A stretch of 64,000 bases of DNA, taken from Owenweeksia hongkongensis DSM 17368. GTDB taxonomy: Bacteria; Bacteroidota; Bacteroidia; Flavobacteriales; Schleiferiaceae. The notes beneath the pieces were generated by a model. It did not search any database. It had not been told where the DNA came from and saw only the letters and a list, made by a program, of their open reading frames with translations. Made by a program: the position numbers and the translations under genes. This document shows, in pieces, positions 3,826 through 26,431 of the stretch (position 1 is the stretch's first letter; every line of letters begins with the position of its first letter). The stretch spans positions 2,852,001 through 2,916,000 of the forward strand of contig NC_016599.1 of the NCBI RefSeq assembly GCF_000236705.1. Direction: 5' to 3'.

Positions 3826-6800
3826 TTAAACCTTCTCGAGGTGTATTTTAGTATTTATTTCATCAAAACTTACTTCTAGTCCTTCAGTCAGATTATCAGT
3901 CATTTCCAAAGTTTCAGTCAGTGTTTCGGTGGTTATATAGCCTTTGTTTTCGCTAATGGCGGTTTCCAGTCCATCGGCTTTTTGTACCCTAAGTGCAATT
4001 CTGTCCGTTACTTCCAGTCCGCTATCTTTTCTCAAGTTTTGAATGCGGTTTACCAATTCACGGGCTATACCTTCATTTTTCAACTCTTCGCTCAGCGTAA
4101 TATCAAGCGCCACAGTAATACCGTTTTCGGTCATTACCAACCACCCTGGAATATCTTCTGTAGAAACTTCTACATCTTCCATCAATAGTTCCACTTCCTG
4201 CCCTTCTAAAGTAAGGTGATAATGGCCTTGTTCTTCAAGCTTGGCAATATCGTTTTGCTCAAACTTACCAACAGCCCCGGCAATTTGCTTCATCAGCTTA
4301 CCATATTTTGGGCCAAGCTTCTTAAAGTCGGGTTTTACCTTCTTCACCAAAACGCCAGAAACGTCTTTTAGTATATCCAGTTCCTTCACATTTACTTCAG
4401 AAAGGACAAGGTCCTGAATGCTTTCAATAAGTTCAACGGTTTCTGGTTTTAGCGCGGGCACCATCATTTTTTGTAGTGGCTGGCGCACTTTTATGCTTTC
4501 GCGCTTACGCAATGAAAATACCATGGAGCTCAATTGCTGGGCCATTTTCATTCTGTCGTTCAGGCGCTCATCAATCAACTCTGCTCTAGCCTCGCCCAGG
4601 TAAGTCAGATGTACCGACTTTTCTTTGCTGCCTTCCGGCAAATGGCTACTTAGGTTTTGATACAACCAATCAGCAAAAAACGGAGCAATAGGACTCATCA
4701 ATTGACTTACTGTAAACAAGCACTCATAAAGCGTTTCATAAGCCATTTGCTTATCGGTGCTCATTTCACCTTTCCAAAAACGTCTGCGGCAAAGGCGAAC
4801 GTACCAGTTGCTCAGTTCTTCATCTACAAACTGCTGCATAGCTCGGCCAGCACGGGTTGGCTCATATTCATTAAAGCTATTTTTCACAGTTTGTTTAAGA
4901 ACCTGCAAACGTGAAAGTACCCAGCGGTCAATCTCAGGGCGGTCGGCCACATTGGTCTGTTGGTCTGCATTCCATTCAAACCCGTCAATATTTGCGTAAA
5001 GCGCGAAGAAAGAGTAGGTGTTGTAAAGAGTGCCAAAGAATTTACGCTGCACTTCGCCAATTCCTTCAAGGTCAAATTTCAAATTATCCCAAGGTTGTGC
5101 ATTGGTAATCATGTACCAGCGAACAGGGTCAGCACCATACTTTAAAATAGTCTCAAATGGGTCAGCAGCGTTGCCCAATCTCTTGGACATTTTCTGGCCA
5201 TTTTTGTCAAGCACCAATCCGTTTGACACGACATTTTTGTAGGCCACAGAATCGAAAACCAGACCAGCAATGGTGTGCAAAGTGTAAAACCATCCACGCG
5301 TTTGGTCTACCCCTTCAGCAATAAAATCTGCAGGGTACTGAGTTTCAAATTTGTCTTTATTTTCAAAAGGATAATGAAGCTGAGCATAGGGCATAGCACC
5401 GCTATCAAACCATACATCAATCAGGTCGGACTCTCTGTGCATCGGTTGCCCTTTCGGGGAAAGCAAAACTACTTTGTCCACCACATTTCTGTGAAGATCT
5501 ACGGTGTCGTAATTGGCTTCGTCCATGTTGCCCGGCTCAAAGCTTTCAAAAGGATGTGAATCCATCAATCCAGCTTTTATGGCTTCATCGCAGGCCGCTT
5601 TAAGCTCTTCTACACTACCAAATATTTTGCGCTCGGTACCATCTTCCGTGCTCCATATCGGCAAAGGAATACCCCAGTAGCGCGAGCGGCTTAGATTCCA
5701 GTCATTGGCATTTTCGAGCCAGTTTCCAAAACGTCCTTCACCAGTGCTTTTAGGTTTCCAGTTAATTTCTTTATTCAAACCTACCAAACGCTCCTTGTGC
5801 TGGGTCACATTTATAAACCAGCTATCCAAAGGATAATAAAGAATAGGCTTGTCCGTACGCCAGCAATGTGGGTAGCTGTGCACGTATTTCTCAACTTTAA
5901 AGGCTTTGTTTTCTTCCTTCAGTTTGATGGCAATTTCTACATCTACTGATTTCTCAGGAGCTTCACCATCGGCATAATATTCATTCTTCACATAGCGGCC
6001 GCCATACTCGCCCATGTGCTTGGTGAATTTTCCTTGCAGGTCAACCAAAGGCACTGGGTTTTCATTATCATCAAGCACCAACATTGGAGGCACTGGAGGT
6101 GTAGCTTCTTTGGCTACCTTGGCATCATCAGCACCAAAAGTAGGAGCCGTATGAACGATACCTGTACCATCTTCGGTGGTTACAAAGTCTCCGCTAATTA
6201 CGCGGAAAGCATTTTCGGCATTCTCGTAAGGTAGAGCATAAGGCAAAAGCTGCTCATAGCGCAATTCCAAAAGGTCAGCGCCTACACCTTCCCAAACTAT
6301 AGTCCATGGAATATTTTTACCCTTGCCATCATAGTCGGCAAGTGGTTGGTCTTTTTGCTCAGCTTTGAAGTATTTACCGACAAGGTTTTTAGCTAACACA
6401 ACCTTTTGAGCTTTGTGGGTGTACATGTTAAAAGTTTCCACCATCACATACTCAATCTTCTTTCCTACGGTAAGCGCAGTGTTTGAAGGAAGTGTCCATG
6501 GAGTAGTCGTCCACGCTAAGAAGTAAACTTTATCATCGGCCTTTACGGCATCACCAAAAGTATTGCTGTAAGCTTCATTTTTTATCGCAGGAAACTGCGC
6601 GATAATGGTGGTGTCGGTAACATCACGGTAAGATCCGGGCATGTTTACCTCGTGCGAGCTAAGTCCTGTTCCCGCTTTTGGCGAATAAGGCTGAATGGTG
6701 TAGCCTTTGTACATCAGCTCTTTGTCCCAAATTTGCTTTAGCAGCCACCATACCGTTTCCATATATTTGGACTTGTAGGTAATGTAGGGATCATCCATAT

Positions 6801-7233
6801 CTACCCAATAGCCCATCTTTTCGGTAAGGTCATTCCACACATCAGTATAGCGCATCACGGCTTTTTTACAAGCTTCGTTGTAGGCTTCCACAGAAATGGT
6901 TTTGCCAATGTCTTCTTTGGTAATACCCAATTCCTTTTCTACACCAAGCTCTACAGGCAGTCCGTGTGTATCCCAGCCAGCTTTGCGCTTTACCTGGTAA
7001 CCTTCCAAAGTTTTGAAACGGCAAAAAATATCCTTGATAGAACGCGCCATTACGTGGTGAATTCCGGGCAAACCATTAGCCGAGGGAGGTCCTTCATAAA
7101 AGGTGAAAGACGGCTTTCCTTCACGGGAAGAAATGCTTTCCTCAAAAATGTTATTGTCTTGCCAATATTTTAGTATTTCCTGGCTTATGCCGGAAAGGTT
7201 CAAATGCTTGTATTCTGGATATTTGCGCGCCAT
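3826..7233 (-). CDS. ileS: Isoleucyl-tRNA synthetase
   Basis: 1135 residues; charges tRNA-Ile with isoleucine in the cytoplasm. The class I HIGH motif appears as GLPGIHH (about residues 54-60, after FYEGPPSAN) and the KMSKS loop as KMSKR (about residue 681, in GQKMSKRLGNAADPFE). An editing (CP1) insertion with WTTTPWTLPSN and an anticodon-binding domain follow. The length and the KMSKR variant fit the eukaryote-like type 2 IleRS group better than the ~930-aa E. coli type; no C-terminal zinc-binding cysteine cluster is seen. Start ATG at 7233 gives the expected KYPEYKHLNLS opening. It is the first gene of the minus-strand block. Confidence 0.97.
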   Translation of the reverse strand: MARKYPEYKHLNLSGISQEILKYWQDNNIFEESISSREGKPSFTFYEGPPSANGLPGIHHVMARSIKDIFCRFKTLEGYQVKRKAGWDTHGLPVELGVEKELGITKEDIGKTISVEAYNEACKKAVMRYTDVWNDLTEKMGYWVDMDDPYITYKSKYMETVWWLLKQIWDKELMYKGYTIQPYSPKAGTGLSSHEVNMPGSYRDVTDTTIIAQFPAIKNEAYSNTFGDAVKADDKVYFLAWTTTPWTLPSNTALTVGKKIEYVMVETFNMYTHKAQKVVLAKNLVGKYFKAEQKDQPLADYDGKGKNIPWTIVWEGVGADLLELRYEQLLPYALPYENAENAFRVISGDFVTTEDGTGIVHTAPTFGADDAKVAKEATPPVPPMLVLDDNENPVPLVDLQGKFTKHMGEYGGRYVKNEYYADGEAPEKSVDVEIAIKLKEENKAFKVEKYVHSYPHCWRTDKPILYYPLDSWFINVTQHKERLVGLNKEINWKPKSTGEGRFGNWLENANDWNLSRSRYWGIPLPIWSTEDGTERKIFGSVEELKAACDEAIKAGLMDSHPFESFEPGNMDEANYDTVDLHRNVVDKVVLLSPKGQPMHRESDLIDVWFDSGAMPYAQLHYPFENKDKFETQYPADFIAEGVDQTRGWFYTLHTIAGLVFDSVAYKNVVSNGLVLDKNGQKMSKRLGNAADPFETILKYGADPVRWYMITNAQPWDNLKFDLEGIGEVQRKFFGTLYNTYSFFALYANIDGFEWNADQQTNVADRPEIDRWVLSRLQVLKQTVKNSFNEYEPTRAGRAMQQFVDEELSNWYVRLCRRRFWKGEMSTDKQMAYETLYECLFTVSQLMSPIAPFFADWLYQNLSSHLPEGSKEKSVHLTYLGEARAELIDERLNDRMKMAQQLSSMVFSLRKRESIKVRQPLQKMMVPALKPETVELIESIQDLVLSEVNVKELDILKDVSGVLVKKVKPDFKKLGPKYGKLMKQIAGAVGKFEQNDIAKLEEQGHYHLTLEGQEVELLMEDVEVSTEDIPGWLVMTENGITVALDITLSEELKNEGIARELVNRIQNLRKDSGLEVTDRIALRVQKADGLETAISENKGYITTETLTETLEMTDNLTEGLEVSFDEINTKIHLEKV

Positions 7234-7267: not shown

Positions 7268-7392
7268 AGAATTTAAGGGGTTTTAAACCGTATGAACCTA
7301 CGGTGGAAAAGATGACGTGAAGGTTTTAAAGTTTGGATATTTTGTAGTGAGAAATAAATTATGATGATTAGTTTTAGCCTAAATTGAATAGT

Positions 7393-7917
7393 ATGCGCAA
7401 AATTTCTCTGTACATAGCCGCGTCTTTAGATGGCTATATTGCTAAATCAGATGGTGATATAAAATGGTTGGTTGATTTTCCAAACCCTGAAAAGGATGAT
7501 TTTGGTTATAATCATTTTATAAAAGAAGTAGAAACCACTTTAATGGGTGGAGTAACCTTCCGGCAAATTGCGGACTTTGAGGAATGGCCTTATCCTGATA
7601 AAGAGAATTTCGTGTTTACACGGCAAAGAGGTGAGGAAAGTGCCTTGGTTACTTTTATAACCAGCGATGTAGTGGATTTTGTAAAAGAGCTTAGAAAGAA
7701 AAAAGGTGGTCTCATCTGGTTAATTGGCGGGGGGAGTATCAACACTATTTTTATGCAAAATGACTTAGTTGACGAAATCATTCTTACCGTAGTTCCCATT
7801 GTTCTTGGAGATGGAATTCCTTTGTTTGCAAAAGGGGATTTAAATAAAACAATGAAGCTGCAAAAAACCGAAGCTTTTTCAAACGGGATGGTTCAACTCA
7901 CATATTCTAAACAATAA
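7393..7917 (+). CDS. Dihydrofolate reductase family (RibD C-terminal-like) protein
   Basis: 174 residues from the ATG at 7393 (a TTG nine bases upstream is also in frame, but MRKISLYIAASLDGYIAK is the usual family start). The fold is the RibD-C/DHFR reductase type: the N-terminal S-L-Y-I-A-A-S-L-D-G-Y-I-A strand-loop, a central GGVTF turn and the NADPH-binding LIWLIGGGSI near residue 112, then VPIVLGDGIPLF. These are the YyaP/YwjB-like stand-alone reductases, whose substrates are mostly unknown; it is not assigned to folate or riboflavin synthesis. The 7-bp gap to the channel gene downstream suggests cotranscription. Confidence 0.88.
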   Translation: MRKISLYIAASLDGYIAKSDGDIKWLVDFPNPEKDDFGYNHFIKEVETTLMGGVTFRQIADFEEWPYPDKENFVFTRQRGEESALVTFITSDVVDFVKELRKKKGGLIWLIGGGSINTIFMQNDLVDEIILTVVPIVLGDGIPLFAKGDLNKTMKLQKTEAFSNGMVQLTYSKQ

Positions 7918-7924
7918 AATTTGT

Positions 7925-8977
7925 ATGCCTAAATTTTTATCCACGTTGTTTCTATTCCTCTTTTCGGGAATTTTGCTTTTAGCCCAGGACACTACTCTTG
8001 TGATTGGGGTGAGGGAAGCTCCTCCCTTTGTTCTTAATGAGGCAAATGGGGTAAATGGTTTAAGTGTGGATTTTTGGCACTTGGTAGAAGATGAGGCTGG
8101 AGTAGATTTTGTTTTCAAAAACTATGATAACCTACCTGATTTGCTAGCTGCTGTAAAGTCTGGTGAAGTGGATATGTCAATCAACCCGATAACGGTGACA
8201 GATGAAAGGATGCATGATTTGTATTTTTCGCAGCCATTTTTCATCTCAGGCACGGTGGTAGCTCGCAAATCTGAAAGTACCTGGTGGTCGGTTTTAAAGA
8301 ATATTTTTAGTTGGCAATTTTTCTCTGCCGTAGCGGTATTACTGTTTGTTATCTTTCTTTTTGGCTTGGCTATCTGGTTTTTCGAAAGAAGGAAAAACCC
8401 GGAGCAATTTGGTAAAGGCGTTAAGGGTATTGGCGATGGTTTTTGGTGGAGTGCTGTAACAATGACGACTGTAGGTTATGGAGATAAATCCCCGGTTTCG
8501 CGTGGAGGTCGTGTAGTAGGGTTTATTTGGATGTTTGCCGCCATAATCATGATTTCGAGCTTAACGGCAGGGATTGCAAGTGCCCTTACTGTGCAGTCAT
8601 TAGGCACTATAATTAATAGCGTAGAAGATTTGCGGAAGTTCAATGTGGCCTCAATTGACGGTAGTAGTAGTTCGGCACACCTGAAAAAATTTGGTGTAGA
8701 AACAGTGGATTATAAAAGTGTGAAAGACGCTTTGCTTGCTGTAGATAATGATGAGATTGATATGGTGGTGTATGATCGCCCTATTTTGAAACATTATATA
8801 AACGAGCTAAACCTTGAGGATATAAAAATTGCTAAGAAAAACCTTCGAACAGACTATTATAGTTTTTCGTTTAAGAGGGGAAGTGAACTTAGAGATTTTC
8901 TTGATCCCTATGTGGTGCAGGTGCTCAATTCGGATGAGTGGGGCTATAAGTTGAAACTGCACATGGGTGATGATTAG
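7925..8977 (+). CDS. GluR0-like ligand-gated potassium channel
   Basis: 350 residues with the architecture of prokaryotic ionotropic glutamate receptors. A signal peptide (residues 1-20, ending LLLAQ) is followed by lobe S1 of a periplasmic amino-acid-binding domain (about 22-115, with ITVTDERMHDLYFSQPF; the ER arginine is the usual ligand alpha-carboxylate contact). Then come membrane span M1 (~135-155), a pore loop with the potassium filter TTVGYGD (residues 181-187), span M2 (~198-220) and lobe S2 (~228-345, with MVVYDRP supplying the acidic residue). It should tetramerise in the inner membrane and pass K+ when a small ligand binds outside. The filter argues against a plain transporter-binding protein; ligand unknown. 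Confidence 0.9.
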   Translation: MPKFLSTLFLFLFSGILLLAQDTTLVIGVREAPPFVLNEANGVNGLSVDFWHLVEDEAGVDFVFKNYDNLPDLLAAVKSGEVDMSINPITVTDERMHDLYFSQPFFISGTVVARKSESTWWSVLKNIFSWQFFSAVAVLLFVIFLFGLAIWFFERRKNPEQFGKGVKGIGDGFWWSAVTMTTVGYGDKSPVSRGGRVVGFIWMFAAIIMISSLTAGIASALTVQSLGTIINSVEDLRKFNVASIDGSSSSAHLKKFGVETVDYKSVKDALLAVDNDEIDMVVYDRPILKHYINELNLEDIKIAKKNLRTDYYSFSFKRGSELRDFLDPYVVQVLNSDEWGYKLKLHMGDD

Positions 8978-9011: not shown

Positions 9012-9893
9012 ATGAAAAAGAGCTTTTTACTATTTGGCGGCCTCATTATGCTGGCGGCTTGTGGACAACAACCTACAGAAGAAAAGAAAGACCCTGCGGT
9101 GCAGGAACCAGCCATAGAAGAGCGAGGCGCTAAAGAACCTTCGCTTTCTCTAGTTTGGGAAACGGATACAAGCCTTACTACCAATGAATCTGTGCTTTCA
9201 CATGAAGGTGTTTTGTACGTGAGTAACATCGCAGGAAAACCTACTGATAAGGATGGTGTAGGATTTATTTCTAAAGTGGATATGGATGGACAGGTAACAG
9301 ACCTGAAATGGGCTAAAGGCTTGGATGCACCAAAGGGGATGGGTGTGCTAAATGACAAGTTGTACGTTACTAATATTACCGAGTTAGTAGAAATCAATTT
9401 GGCGGATGGTAAAATTACAAAGCGTTATCCAGTGTCTGGTTCAGAGTTTTTGAACGATATAGCCATCTTGGATAACAAAGTTTACTTTTCGGATATGAAT
9501 ACTGGAAAGCTACATGTTTTAGAAAATGGGCAAGTGACAACTCTAGCTGAAAATCGTGAAGCCCTGAATGGACTAGCTGTTTCTGAAGGTAAGTTGTACG
9601 GCCTTGATGCCAAGGGATTGCATCAATTTTCGCTTGACGGGAAAGAGCATGTAACCATAAACGATGAGGTAACTGGTGGGGATGGACTTATAGTGATTGA
9701 TGAAAACACCTTTGTGGCCAGCCGATGGAAAGGTGAAATTTGGATGATTAAAGAGGGTCTTGCAACCAAAATGTTGGATTCAAAGGATCAGGATGTTCAA
9801 ACTGCAGATATCGCTTATATACCTGAGGAAAAGTTGGTTTTGGTACCAAGGTTTTTTTCCAATAAGGTGAGCGCCTACAGACTGGATTATTAG
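9012..9893 (+). CDS. Lipoprotein with SMP-30/gluconolactonase-like beta-propeller
   Basis: 293 residues from the ATG at 9012, chosen because it gives a clean lipoprotein signal: KKSFLLFGGLIMLAAC, with the lipobox LAAC and Cys about residue 17; in-frame codons upstream overlap the channel gene and carry no signal. After an acidic, proline-rich linker come repeated blades with NDKLYVTN, LDNKVYFSDM, SEGKLYGLD and ENTFVASRWKG, the pattern of six-bladed SMP-30/NHL-like propellers. Likely anchored to a membrane. No enzymatic metal site could be confirmed. A strong terminator lies just after the stop. Confidence 0.83.
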   Translation: MKKSFLLFGGLIMLAACGQQPTEEKKDPAVQEPAIEERGAKEPSLSLVWETDTSLTTNESVLSHEGVLYVSNIAGKPTDKDGVGFISKVDMDGQVTDLKWAKGLDAPKGMGVLNDKLYVTNITELVEINLADGKITKRYPVSGSEFLNDIAILDNKVYFSDMNTGKLHVLENGQVTTLAENREALNGLAVSEGKLYGLDAKGLHQFSLDGKEHVTINDEVTGGDGLIVIDENTFVASRWKGEIWMIKEGLATKMLDSKDQDVQTADIAYIPEEKLVLVPRFFSNKVSAYRLDY

Positions 9894-9900
9894 AAGCTAA

Positions 9901-9930
9901 AAAGCCGCGATATACATTTATCGCGGCTTT
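9901..9930. terminator. Bidirectional rho-independent terminator
   Basis: Perfect 12-bp inverted repeat AAAGCCGCGATA / TATCGCGGCTTT around a 6-nt loop, between two converging genes, with the T and A edges expected for use in both directions. Confidence 0.9.
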
Positions 9931-24616: not shown

Positions 24617-26431
24617 TTAATGCGCCTCTGCGATATAGGCTAGCTTCATTCCTTTTTCAAATTGAGGTAAATCACGGCTTACCACCATTGGATCTTCCTC
24701 TTTGCGTAAAATAAATAATGGAATTATACTTCCGCGGTTGGCTTTTAGAATGGAGTCATATTCCTCGCGATCTTGGCAGCTATCTACGGCCATATCTTTG
24801 TGTTGACGTATGGCTTGCGCTAAATTTAGGTAGTCCACGTCCGCGCCAAAAAGTACGTTTCGCGGAAGGTCAATATCTTTGAGCTCCAGCTCTTTTTTAC
24901 TGCAAAGGCGGTACACATTTTCTTCACCAAATTCTTCAGCAAAATACTTGTTGGCTAGGTTGTTTACCTCGCTGCTACTGGTAAGAGCCATAAGTCGCCC
25001 AATATTTGTGAGATCTAAATCCTCAAAAACATTGTCTCCCAAAATGTTGCCTTCATATACATCAAAACCCATGCGCTGTGCTTCTCGGATATTAGCTTGA
25101 GAAGTATCGGCTAAAGTAACCTGAACATCATATTGCTTTAAAAAATTGGCTAAAAAGCGTGAGTTTTCATTAGCTCCAGCTAAAAGGAAGCCCTTAGGTT
25201 CTGCACGTTGCACTTTCAGCAATTTGGCCAAAGGCTTAGCTGTTCCTCCTTGCAATACTACAGTTCCCACAATTACTAAAAAGGTAAGCGGGAGGATAAG
25301 TTCTGCTTGCTCGGCATCAATCGGAGCATCTGTGGTGTTGCTCAGCTGAAGTGCAAATAGAGAAGCTACGGCTGCAGCTACAATTCCTTTTGGACCTACC
25401 CAGGCCATAAAGATTATTTCACGCCAGTTGAACTTGCTACCCAAAGTACTTAGCCAAACTATAAGTGGGCGGATAATCAACACAACTACGCCAAATAGAA
25501 GAACAGCATCCCAGCCAAGTTTTTCAAGCTGTACCATGTCAATTCTGCTGGAAAGCAGGATAAACAAGACGGAGATTAGAATAATACTGATATCCTCTTT
25601 AAAGGAGAGTATTTTCTTAAATTCCTCAATCTTTATGTTGGCAACTACAATTCCCATAAAGGTGGCCGCCATAAGGCCTGCTTCATGAGAAATCATTTCT
25701 GAAAAGCTAAATGCAAAGATTACTAGACCCAGGGCGACCACATTTCTAAGGTAGCCAGGGATTCTATTCTTAAGTAAAATCCAACGCATGAACAGTGCGG
25801 CAAGACCACCAACGAATACTCCAGAGGCTATGGTGATAAAAAAGGTTTTTAGAACCTCTATAGTGTCTGCGTTTTCAAAATGACCGATTTGAATAAACTC
25901 ATATACCAATACGGCAATTAGTGCTCCGATAGGATCGATTACAATTCCCTCCCATTTTAGCACATTGTTTATCCGTTCATTAGGTCGTGTGTTCCGCAGT
26001 ATAGGAATTACCACAGTAGGACCAGAAACAATGATAAGAGCTCCAAATAGGAAAGCCAGACGATAATTTAGCCCAAGCAAATAATGAGCAGCAAGGCCAC
26101 CCAGACCAAGCGTAATGATGGGGCCAAAAATCAGGAGATTTCGCACAACTCCGGCCTGGTGCCGAATATCTTTGAGCTTGAGTGTAAGTCCCCCTTCAAA
26201 AAGAATGATCCCAACCGAAATAGAAACAAAAGCAAAGAGTAAGTCGCCAGAAAAAATCTGGTCACCATCAAGCAACTTATCCCCGTAAGGAGTGAAAAAA
26301 GTAGATAAAGGACCGAGCGCAAGGCCAATCATTATAAGAGGTATGATAGCCGGAACTTTGATTTTCCATGCTAACCACTGCGCCAATACACTGAGTATTA
26401 AAATACTCGCTAGTTCTATCATTCCTTCCAT
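24617..26431 (-). CDS. Sodium:proton antiporter (CPA1/NhaP type) with C-terminal RCK_N domain
   Basis: 604 residues. Residues 1-400 are a cation:proton antiporter with 12-13 spans; GIVIDPIGALIAVLVYEF holds the conserved acidic residue of the ion site. The C-terminal ~190 residues carry a Rossmann-type RCK/TrkA-N fold (GFLLAGANENSRFLANFL ... VTLADTSQANIREAQRMG), which in related transporters senses NAD(H), nucleotides or ions. It likely exchanges Na+ or K+ for H+ across the inner membrane, a common need in marine bacteria. The start at 26431 gives EGMIELASILILSVLAQWL. It is 56 bp past arsC, possibly a read-through unit. Confidence 0.92.
   Translation of the reverse strand: MEGMIELASILILSVLAQWLAWKIKVPAIIPLIMIGLALGPLSTFFTPYGDKLLDGDQIFSGDLLFAFVSISVGIILFEGGLTLKLKDIRHQAGVVRNLLIFGPIITLGLGGLAAHYLLGLNYRLAFLFGALIIVSGPTVVIPILRNTRPNERINNVLKWEGIVIDPIGALIAVLVYEFIQIGHFENADTIEVLKTFFITIASGVFVGGLAALFMRWILLKNRIPGYLRNVVALGLVIFAFSFSEMISHEAGLMAATFMGIVVANIKIEEFKKILSFKEDISIILISVLFILLSSRIDMVQLEKLGWDAVLLFGVVVLIIRPLIVWLSTLGSKFNWREIIFMAWVGPKGIVAAAVASLFALQLSNTTDAPIDAEQAELILPLTFLVIVGTVVLQGGTAKPLAKLLKVQRAEPKGFLLAGANENSRFLANFLKQYDVQVTLADTSQANIREAQRMGFDVYEGNILGDNVFEDLDLTNIGRLMALTSSSEVNNLANKYFAEEFGEENVYRLCSKKELELKDIDLPRNVLFGADVDYLNLAQAIRQHKDMAVDSCQDREEYDSILKANRGSIIPLFILRKEEDPMVVSRDLPQFEKGMKLAYIAEAH

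Follow-up and report, generated by a model that had tools for sequence, protein, structure and literature searches.

A probable GluR0-type potassium channel of Owenweeksia hongkongensis: domain order, ligand residues and gene neighbourhood

The window, i.e., the whole stretch of 64,000 nucleotides analysed here (positions 2852001–2916000 of a single 4,000,057-bp contig), encodes what is very probably (about 0.9) an amino-acid-gated K+ channel of the GluR0 type, located in the inner membrane of Owenweeksia hongkongensis. Strain UST20020801T of this species is described as a free-living seawater bacterium (PMC3570807). The open reading frame, domain order, selectivity filter, ligand residues, predicted fold and conservation of the channel are established below.

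Table 1. Features at the channel locus; positions are those of the window
Feature	Position	Strand	Remarks
ileS	3826..7233	-	divergent from the channel gene; upstream neighbour in 8/11 channel-bearing relatives
RibD_C-type reductase gene	7384..7917	+	TTG start listed, ATG alternative at 7393; Pfam
GluR0-type channel gene	7925..8977	+	350 aa, ATG to TAG, order S1-M1-P-M2-S2
Putative signal peptide	7925..7984	+	residues ~1–20, by eye; model helix 2–18
S1 half of ligand-binding domain	7994..8275	+	residues 24–117, with R95; phmmer match to 2pyy
M1 helix	8312..8386	+	residues 130–154; AlphaFold2 model
P helix and K+ selectivity filter	8417..8485	+	residues 165–187; TTVGYGD at 181–187
M2 helix	8501..8602	+	residues 193–226; iGluR-like SSLTAGIASALTV motif
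S2 half of ligand-binding domain	8609..8974	+	residues 229–350; S247–S249, D284
Beta-propeller lipoprotein gene	9012..9893	+	293 aa; starts 34 nt past the channel gene
Intrinsic-terminator-like hairpin	9901..9930	+	12 pairs, after the propeller gene; pattern match only

The channel gene and its class

The open reading frame is intact and uninterrupted from start to stop codon in the open reading frame listing, and its product was matched by three Pfam families, all exceeding the curated cut-offs: SBP_bac_3 in a match split across residues 25–329 (E 3.9e-18), Lig_chan (residues 138–248, E 7e-18) and Ion_trans_2 (residues 139–222, E 5.2e-14). The original prediction had claimed a split binding domain within 350 residues and a TTVGYGD filter; the Pfam matches bear out the former, and the latter is part of the K+ filter TMTTVGYGD (residues 179–187). 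Lig_chan is found in one gene of this genome and in none of 14 well-known control genomes. At the level of sequence, the match to GluR0-type receptors is far beyond chance. By eye, the N-terminus, MPKFLSTLFLFLFSGILLLAQ, resembles a signal peptide, and it is helical in the AlphaFold2 model; beyond this segment, the long membrane helices of the model are M1, P (residues 165–180) and M2. K/R-rich stretches, recognized by eye, follow M1 (ERRKNPEQFGKGVKG) and the filter (DKSPVSRGGR), which fits the expected cytoplasmic face. The S2 half matches 2pyy by sequence over residues 229–326, and the model alignment extends to residue 349. A decayed gene was ruled out, given the intact frame and 33–60% identity to the ten homologs in genomes of the same family. 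Neither is there a second copy of the channel, as at a threshold of E 0.001 the genome has just one further match, located at 3949265, which spans only residues 136–217 of the query, i.e., the pore.

In the available text of Ger et al. 2010, where 12 members are listed, Group 1 prokaryotic iGluRs have both lobes, two transmembrane helices around a pore loop, a K+ filter, and a conserved Arg in S1 and Asp in S2 (PMC2950845). The channel agrees in having SBP-type S1 and S2 lobes flanking two transmembrane helices and a pore loop, a TVGYG-type K+ filter, and neither an amino-terminal domain nor M4. Judged by sequence and model, it is a GluR0-type or “Group 1” prokaryotic iGluR of known architecture. 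A Group 2 prokaryotic iGluR was ruled out by the canonical K+ filter in the pore loop, the eukaryotic iGluR class by the absence of the M4 helix and the amino-terminal domain in 350 aa, and an ABC-transporter amino-acid binding protein (SBP_bac_3) by the pore module at residues 130–226, which carries the filter and splits the domain.

The same S1-M1-P-M2-S2 order, K+ filter and Arg/Asp pair occur in Synechocystis GluR0 (slr1257; structure 1ii5), although the channel is only 23% identical to it over the aligned ligand-binding domain. The ligand-binding domain of Nostoc punctiforme GluR0 (2pyy) is the best match by both sequence and fold, but here the solved structure comprises the binding core only and identity is 25%. 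With the AMPA receptors (GluA1-4), the channel has a ligand-binding domain plus pore in common, the M2/M3 motif being SSLTAGIASALT versus SSYTANLAAFLT; at 350 aa, however, it is without amino-terminal domain and M4, and where AMPA receptors have their pore loop it carries a K+ filter. Group 1 of Ger et al. already covers this architecture, filter and fold, and the string “Bacteroid” is absent from the available part of the main text of that paper (PMC2950845). The literature on GluR0 yielded no hit with “Flavobacteri” and, with “Bacteroid”, PMC5127831 only, whose accessible text mentions each word a single time. Added here are a Bacteroidota clade with an ileS locus and the association with a propeller gene.

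Predicted fold and ligand residues

The AlphaFold2 monomer, computed from 42 aligned sequences, reached a mean pLDDT of 91.6 and a pTM of 0.78. Binding-domain folds were ranked by realignment among the best 1000 Foldseek chains, rows within Z 1 being tied. The best match was 2pyy (Z 29.4, rmsd 1.7 Å, 212 residues), followed by two glutamine-binding proteins (Z 28.3 and 27.7) and, in fourth place, by 1ii5 (Z 27.6, rmsd 2.2, 219 residues); glutamine- and arginine-type binding proteins at Z 26–28 are tied with the latter. Both 2pyy and 1ii5 are structures with bound L-glutamate. In these model comparisons, the fold by itself singles out neither glutamate nor, beyond 2pyy, GluR0 from glutamine-binding proteins; since such rows are tied, it is the pore that assigns the protein to GluR0 rather than to the glutamine-binding proteins. 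In a sequence search of solved structures, 2pyy again came out on top (E 1e-21), ahead of a plant glutamate receptor, the binding protein ArtJ and animal receptors. All 50 matches that Foldseek listed for the whole chain were AMPA-receptor chains, with a best E of 7.5e-20 and moderate TMq values of 0.48–0.69.

Residues 74–109 and 279–336 align with the S1 and S2 segments of Synechocystis GluR0 (blastp 1e-9 and 5e-5), for which the segments printed in PMC2950845 were run against the single channel protein. According to the same source, as far as available, the S1 Arg contacts the alpha-carboxy group and the S2 Asp the alpha-amino group of the ligand (PMC2950845). Inside the aligned segments lie both ligand residues that had been predicted, as R95 in NPITVTDER and D284 in YDRP. 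Their conservation was followed in an alignment of 42 rows from 44 loci, in which the window row replaces L001, the window gene. Left out are L009 (genome G009), which ends close to the end of a contig, L056, which has an in-frame TGA, and two matches of the phylum search to which no locus belonged, namely the second one in G359 and that in G334. R95 is Arg in 42/42 sequences and D284 is Asp in 41/42, with Asn in L012; the ligand contacts of both lobes, the loss of which had been named as counter-evidence, are thus retained. P34 is invariant, F35 is Phe in 41 sequences, and position 90 is Thr in 38 and Ser in four. Positions 246–250, near the ligand side chain, are variable, with mostly small or hydroxyl residues. 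The roles of other single residues are presumed, partly by GluA2 numbering. GYGD is conserved in 41/42 sequences, being lost in L059. This homolog, which comes from a different family within the phylum, has IGSSD instead of VGYGD and retains the Arg and Asp; by its sequence, its selectivity may differ from that of homologs with the K+ filter. The intact GluR0-type K+ channel of the original prediction is supported by the filter and both ligand residues as well as by the domain order and the predicted fold.

Proposed working of the channel and alternatives

From here on, we infer the membrane orientation, tetramer, ligand identity, gating and physiology of the channel. Four subunits would be arranged round one pore, each with a periplasmic clam-shell domain of two lobes. 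The ligand would be an alpha-amino acid, most likely L-glutamate or a close relative, held by R95 at its carboxylate and by D284 at its amino group, and closure of the lobes would tug the M2 helices so that the pore opens. The canonical K+ filter would lie on the cytoplasmic side, the pore being inverted relative to KcsA. Opening, triggered perhaps by an extracellular or released amino acid, would let K+ flow down its gradient and shift the membrane potential or turgor.

The original prediction held the physiology of such channels to be largely unknown. This is partly dated, as a 2026 study, in its accessible parts, gives Synechocystis GluR0 a role in cell volume upon KCl upshock (PMC13099474). 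Within 70–150 ms after the upshock, wild-type Synechocystis shrinks more slowly than the GluR0 mutant, whereas the two are equal at 1–10 min; the mutant grows better on high-KCl agar and equally well in liquid. Synechocystis GluR0 also rescues K+-uptake-deficient E. coli, an effect lost without the soluble domains, and PhoA fusions point to the inverted topology, although not all values are significant (all PMC13099474).

A GluR0-type channel with another natural ligand than glutamate, e.g., glutamine, serine or a basic amino acid, is a serious candidate, which we place somewhat short of even odds. Glutamine- and lysine/arginine/ornithine-binding proteins are the best NCBIfam matches, albeit far under the cut-offs, binding proteins of the glutamine and arginine type lie within Z 1–3 of 2pyy, and the homologs differ at positions 246–250; on the other hand, both L-glutamate-bound GluR0 cores rank within the top four by fold, and S247 and S248 preserve the small, hydroxyl-bearing residues found in that loop. 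Further, the pore could chiefly be a K+ leak or turgor valve that the ligand merely tunes. The rescue of E. coli by Synechocystis GluR0 in minimal medium, for which the available methods list contains no glutamate, and the altered shrinkage upon KCl upshock after loss of GluR0 agree with such a valve (PMC13099474). Nevertheless, we consider it unlikely, as the conservation of R95 and D284 would be needless for a simple leak. Finally, the binding domain makes up much of the protein, and 9/10 distant plasmid homologs listed are annotated as “transporter substrate-binding domain-containing protein”, as would suit a membrane-anchored binding protein or sensor that is no channel. A pore module with two helices, a P helix and a K+ filter, the filter being present in 41/42 aligned sequences, makes this highly improbable.

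Besides the channel, the only SBP_bac_3 match in the genome is an open frame of 506 aa at 861737, and the channel would therefore be a main candidate for periplasmic amino-acid sensing via this fold. To our knowledge, few bacterial GluR0-type channels have been tested. One Lig_chan gene, one other SBP_bac_3 match and what appears to be a cultured marine type strain offer a clean setting for asking what these channels sense. A widespread view, found for example in the available text of PMC6385376, is that K+-selective bacterial channels of the GluR0 type resemble the ancestor from which the glutamate receptors of neurons arose. A KefB/C-like gene (24617–26431, minus strand) with Na_H_Exchanger and TrkA_N matches, a candidate for K+ handling, is located about 16 kb from the channel.

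Distribution and gene neighbourhood

Homologs of the channel (E 1e-30 or better) were found in 31/395 sampled genomes of the phylum and 20/171 genera, and a full or near-full homolog occurs in 11/60 relatives, split over two contigs in G009; the window's genome is counted in both sets. The patchy distribution that had been claimed is supported by these figures. Any match to the channel was obtained in 43/60 relatives; 32/60 have partial matches only, nearly all over the pore and in G052 also over S1. Pore-only matches are the pattern expected, at sequence level, from ordinary K+ channels. All 11 channel-bearing relatives belong to the window's family (11/37 there). A short-pattern scan of named genomes gave four loci, in Psychroflexus tropicus, P. 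lacisalsi, an unclassified bacterial MAG and a Thiotrichales MAG. Among plasmids, 21 records hold distant homologs (26–32% identity in the ten listed), by first name Agrobacterium in seven, Salmonella in three, Rhizobium and Paracoccus in two each, and single others. In the tree, the window's gene clusters with six genes of the same family (97/95), and this cluster joins two more rows of the family and two Psychroflexus rows (100/99); L012, also of this family, is placed elsewhere on a long branch. The distribution fits largely vertical inheritance accompanied by losses and possibly by some transfer, the tree being indecisive.

The neighbours had been given as a reductase and a propeller lipoprotein, which agrees with the RibD_C match and the predicted beta-propeller fold. 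Reductase, channel and lipoprotein genes lie on the same strand with gaps of 7 nt and 34 nt, and from this arrangement a single transcript is plausible. Terminator-like hairpins number eight in the region versus 2.6 in shuffles; promoter-like sites, at three versus 6.7 in shuffles, are fewer than chance, and the TANNTTTG pattern has two matches versus 4.9 by chance. The original prediction had proposed a survey of gene neighbourhoods, and among the 11 channel-bearing relatives ileS is the upstream, divergently oriented neighbour in eight, the propeller the next downstream gene in five (window, G003, G011, G017, G030) and the reductase adjacent in two (window, G015). Being adjacent in only 2/11, the RibD_C reductase was rejected as a partner of the channel and taken as incidental. 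The gap between ileS and the channel contains no gene of at least 80 aa in G003, G011, G017 and G030, one gene in the window, and two in G010 and G026.

The lipoprotein matched no Pfam family. Its Cys17 is invariant in 8/8 sequences, and its model (pLDDT 85.6) is a beta-propeller nearest to Cj1041c of Campylobacter jejuni (Z 32.2, rmsd 2.1, 242 residues, 29% identity), the structure of which was solved both with and without Ca2+. At E 1e-20, the lipoprotein is present in 8/60 relatives, six of which carry the channel; it is missing in 5/11 channel genomes and present in 2/49 relatives without the channel. Ignoring kinship, the association is significant by Fisher's test both overall (6/11 versus 2/49, p 2e-4) and within the family (6/11 versus 1/26, p 1e-3). 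The propeller gene next to the channel is a lead on physiology. It might encode a dedicated partner, either an auxiliary subunit or an enzyme making, removing or presenting the ligand, but we consider this improbable, and we know of no auxiliary component described for a bacterial glutamate-receptor-like channel. Our estimate was lowered by G009, the sixth channel-bearing relative with the lipoprotein, where the lipoprotein gene lies about 0.5 kb past the end of the channel and an opposite-strand frame of 145 aa separates the two. Read cautiously, the link may reflect gene order shared by descent instead of function, and ileS, at 8/11, is a still more stable neighbour.

In two genomes from the same genus as the window (L073:12660–13098 in G003 and L102 in G002), the ileS gene itself contains an in-frame insert with a domain of the DUF559 type (Vsr-like nuclease), whereas the window's ileS is uninterrupted at this position. 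In G003, the DUF559 match fills 109 aa of the approximately 142-aa insert, leaving little room for an intein; in both genomes, G/C-rich inverted repeats were seen by eye at the ends of the insert. Two genes for type I restriction R subunits likewise contain DUF559 in-frame, positioned by eye directly ahead of the ATPase motif, and a further unit lies within an Eco57I-type restriction-modification gene (loci L101 in G008, L107 in G005 and L108 in G006). Together with the ileS cases, DUF559 is embedded in a longer host gene in at least five of the 17 matches from 31 genomes (13/17 loci inspected). Possibly, the DUF559 unit is a mobile nuclease for which coding sequence is a tolerated insertion site; among the DUF559 papers listed, judged by titles, none is evidently on insertion into host genes. 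In the genome from which the window comes, DUF559 has three matches, all outside the window (G000:C1:702984, 254409 and 1108394) and in short frames of 131, 132 and 103 aa, the last being a partial match. Near these frames, palindromic or repeated G/C-rich sequence was seen by eye.
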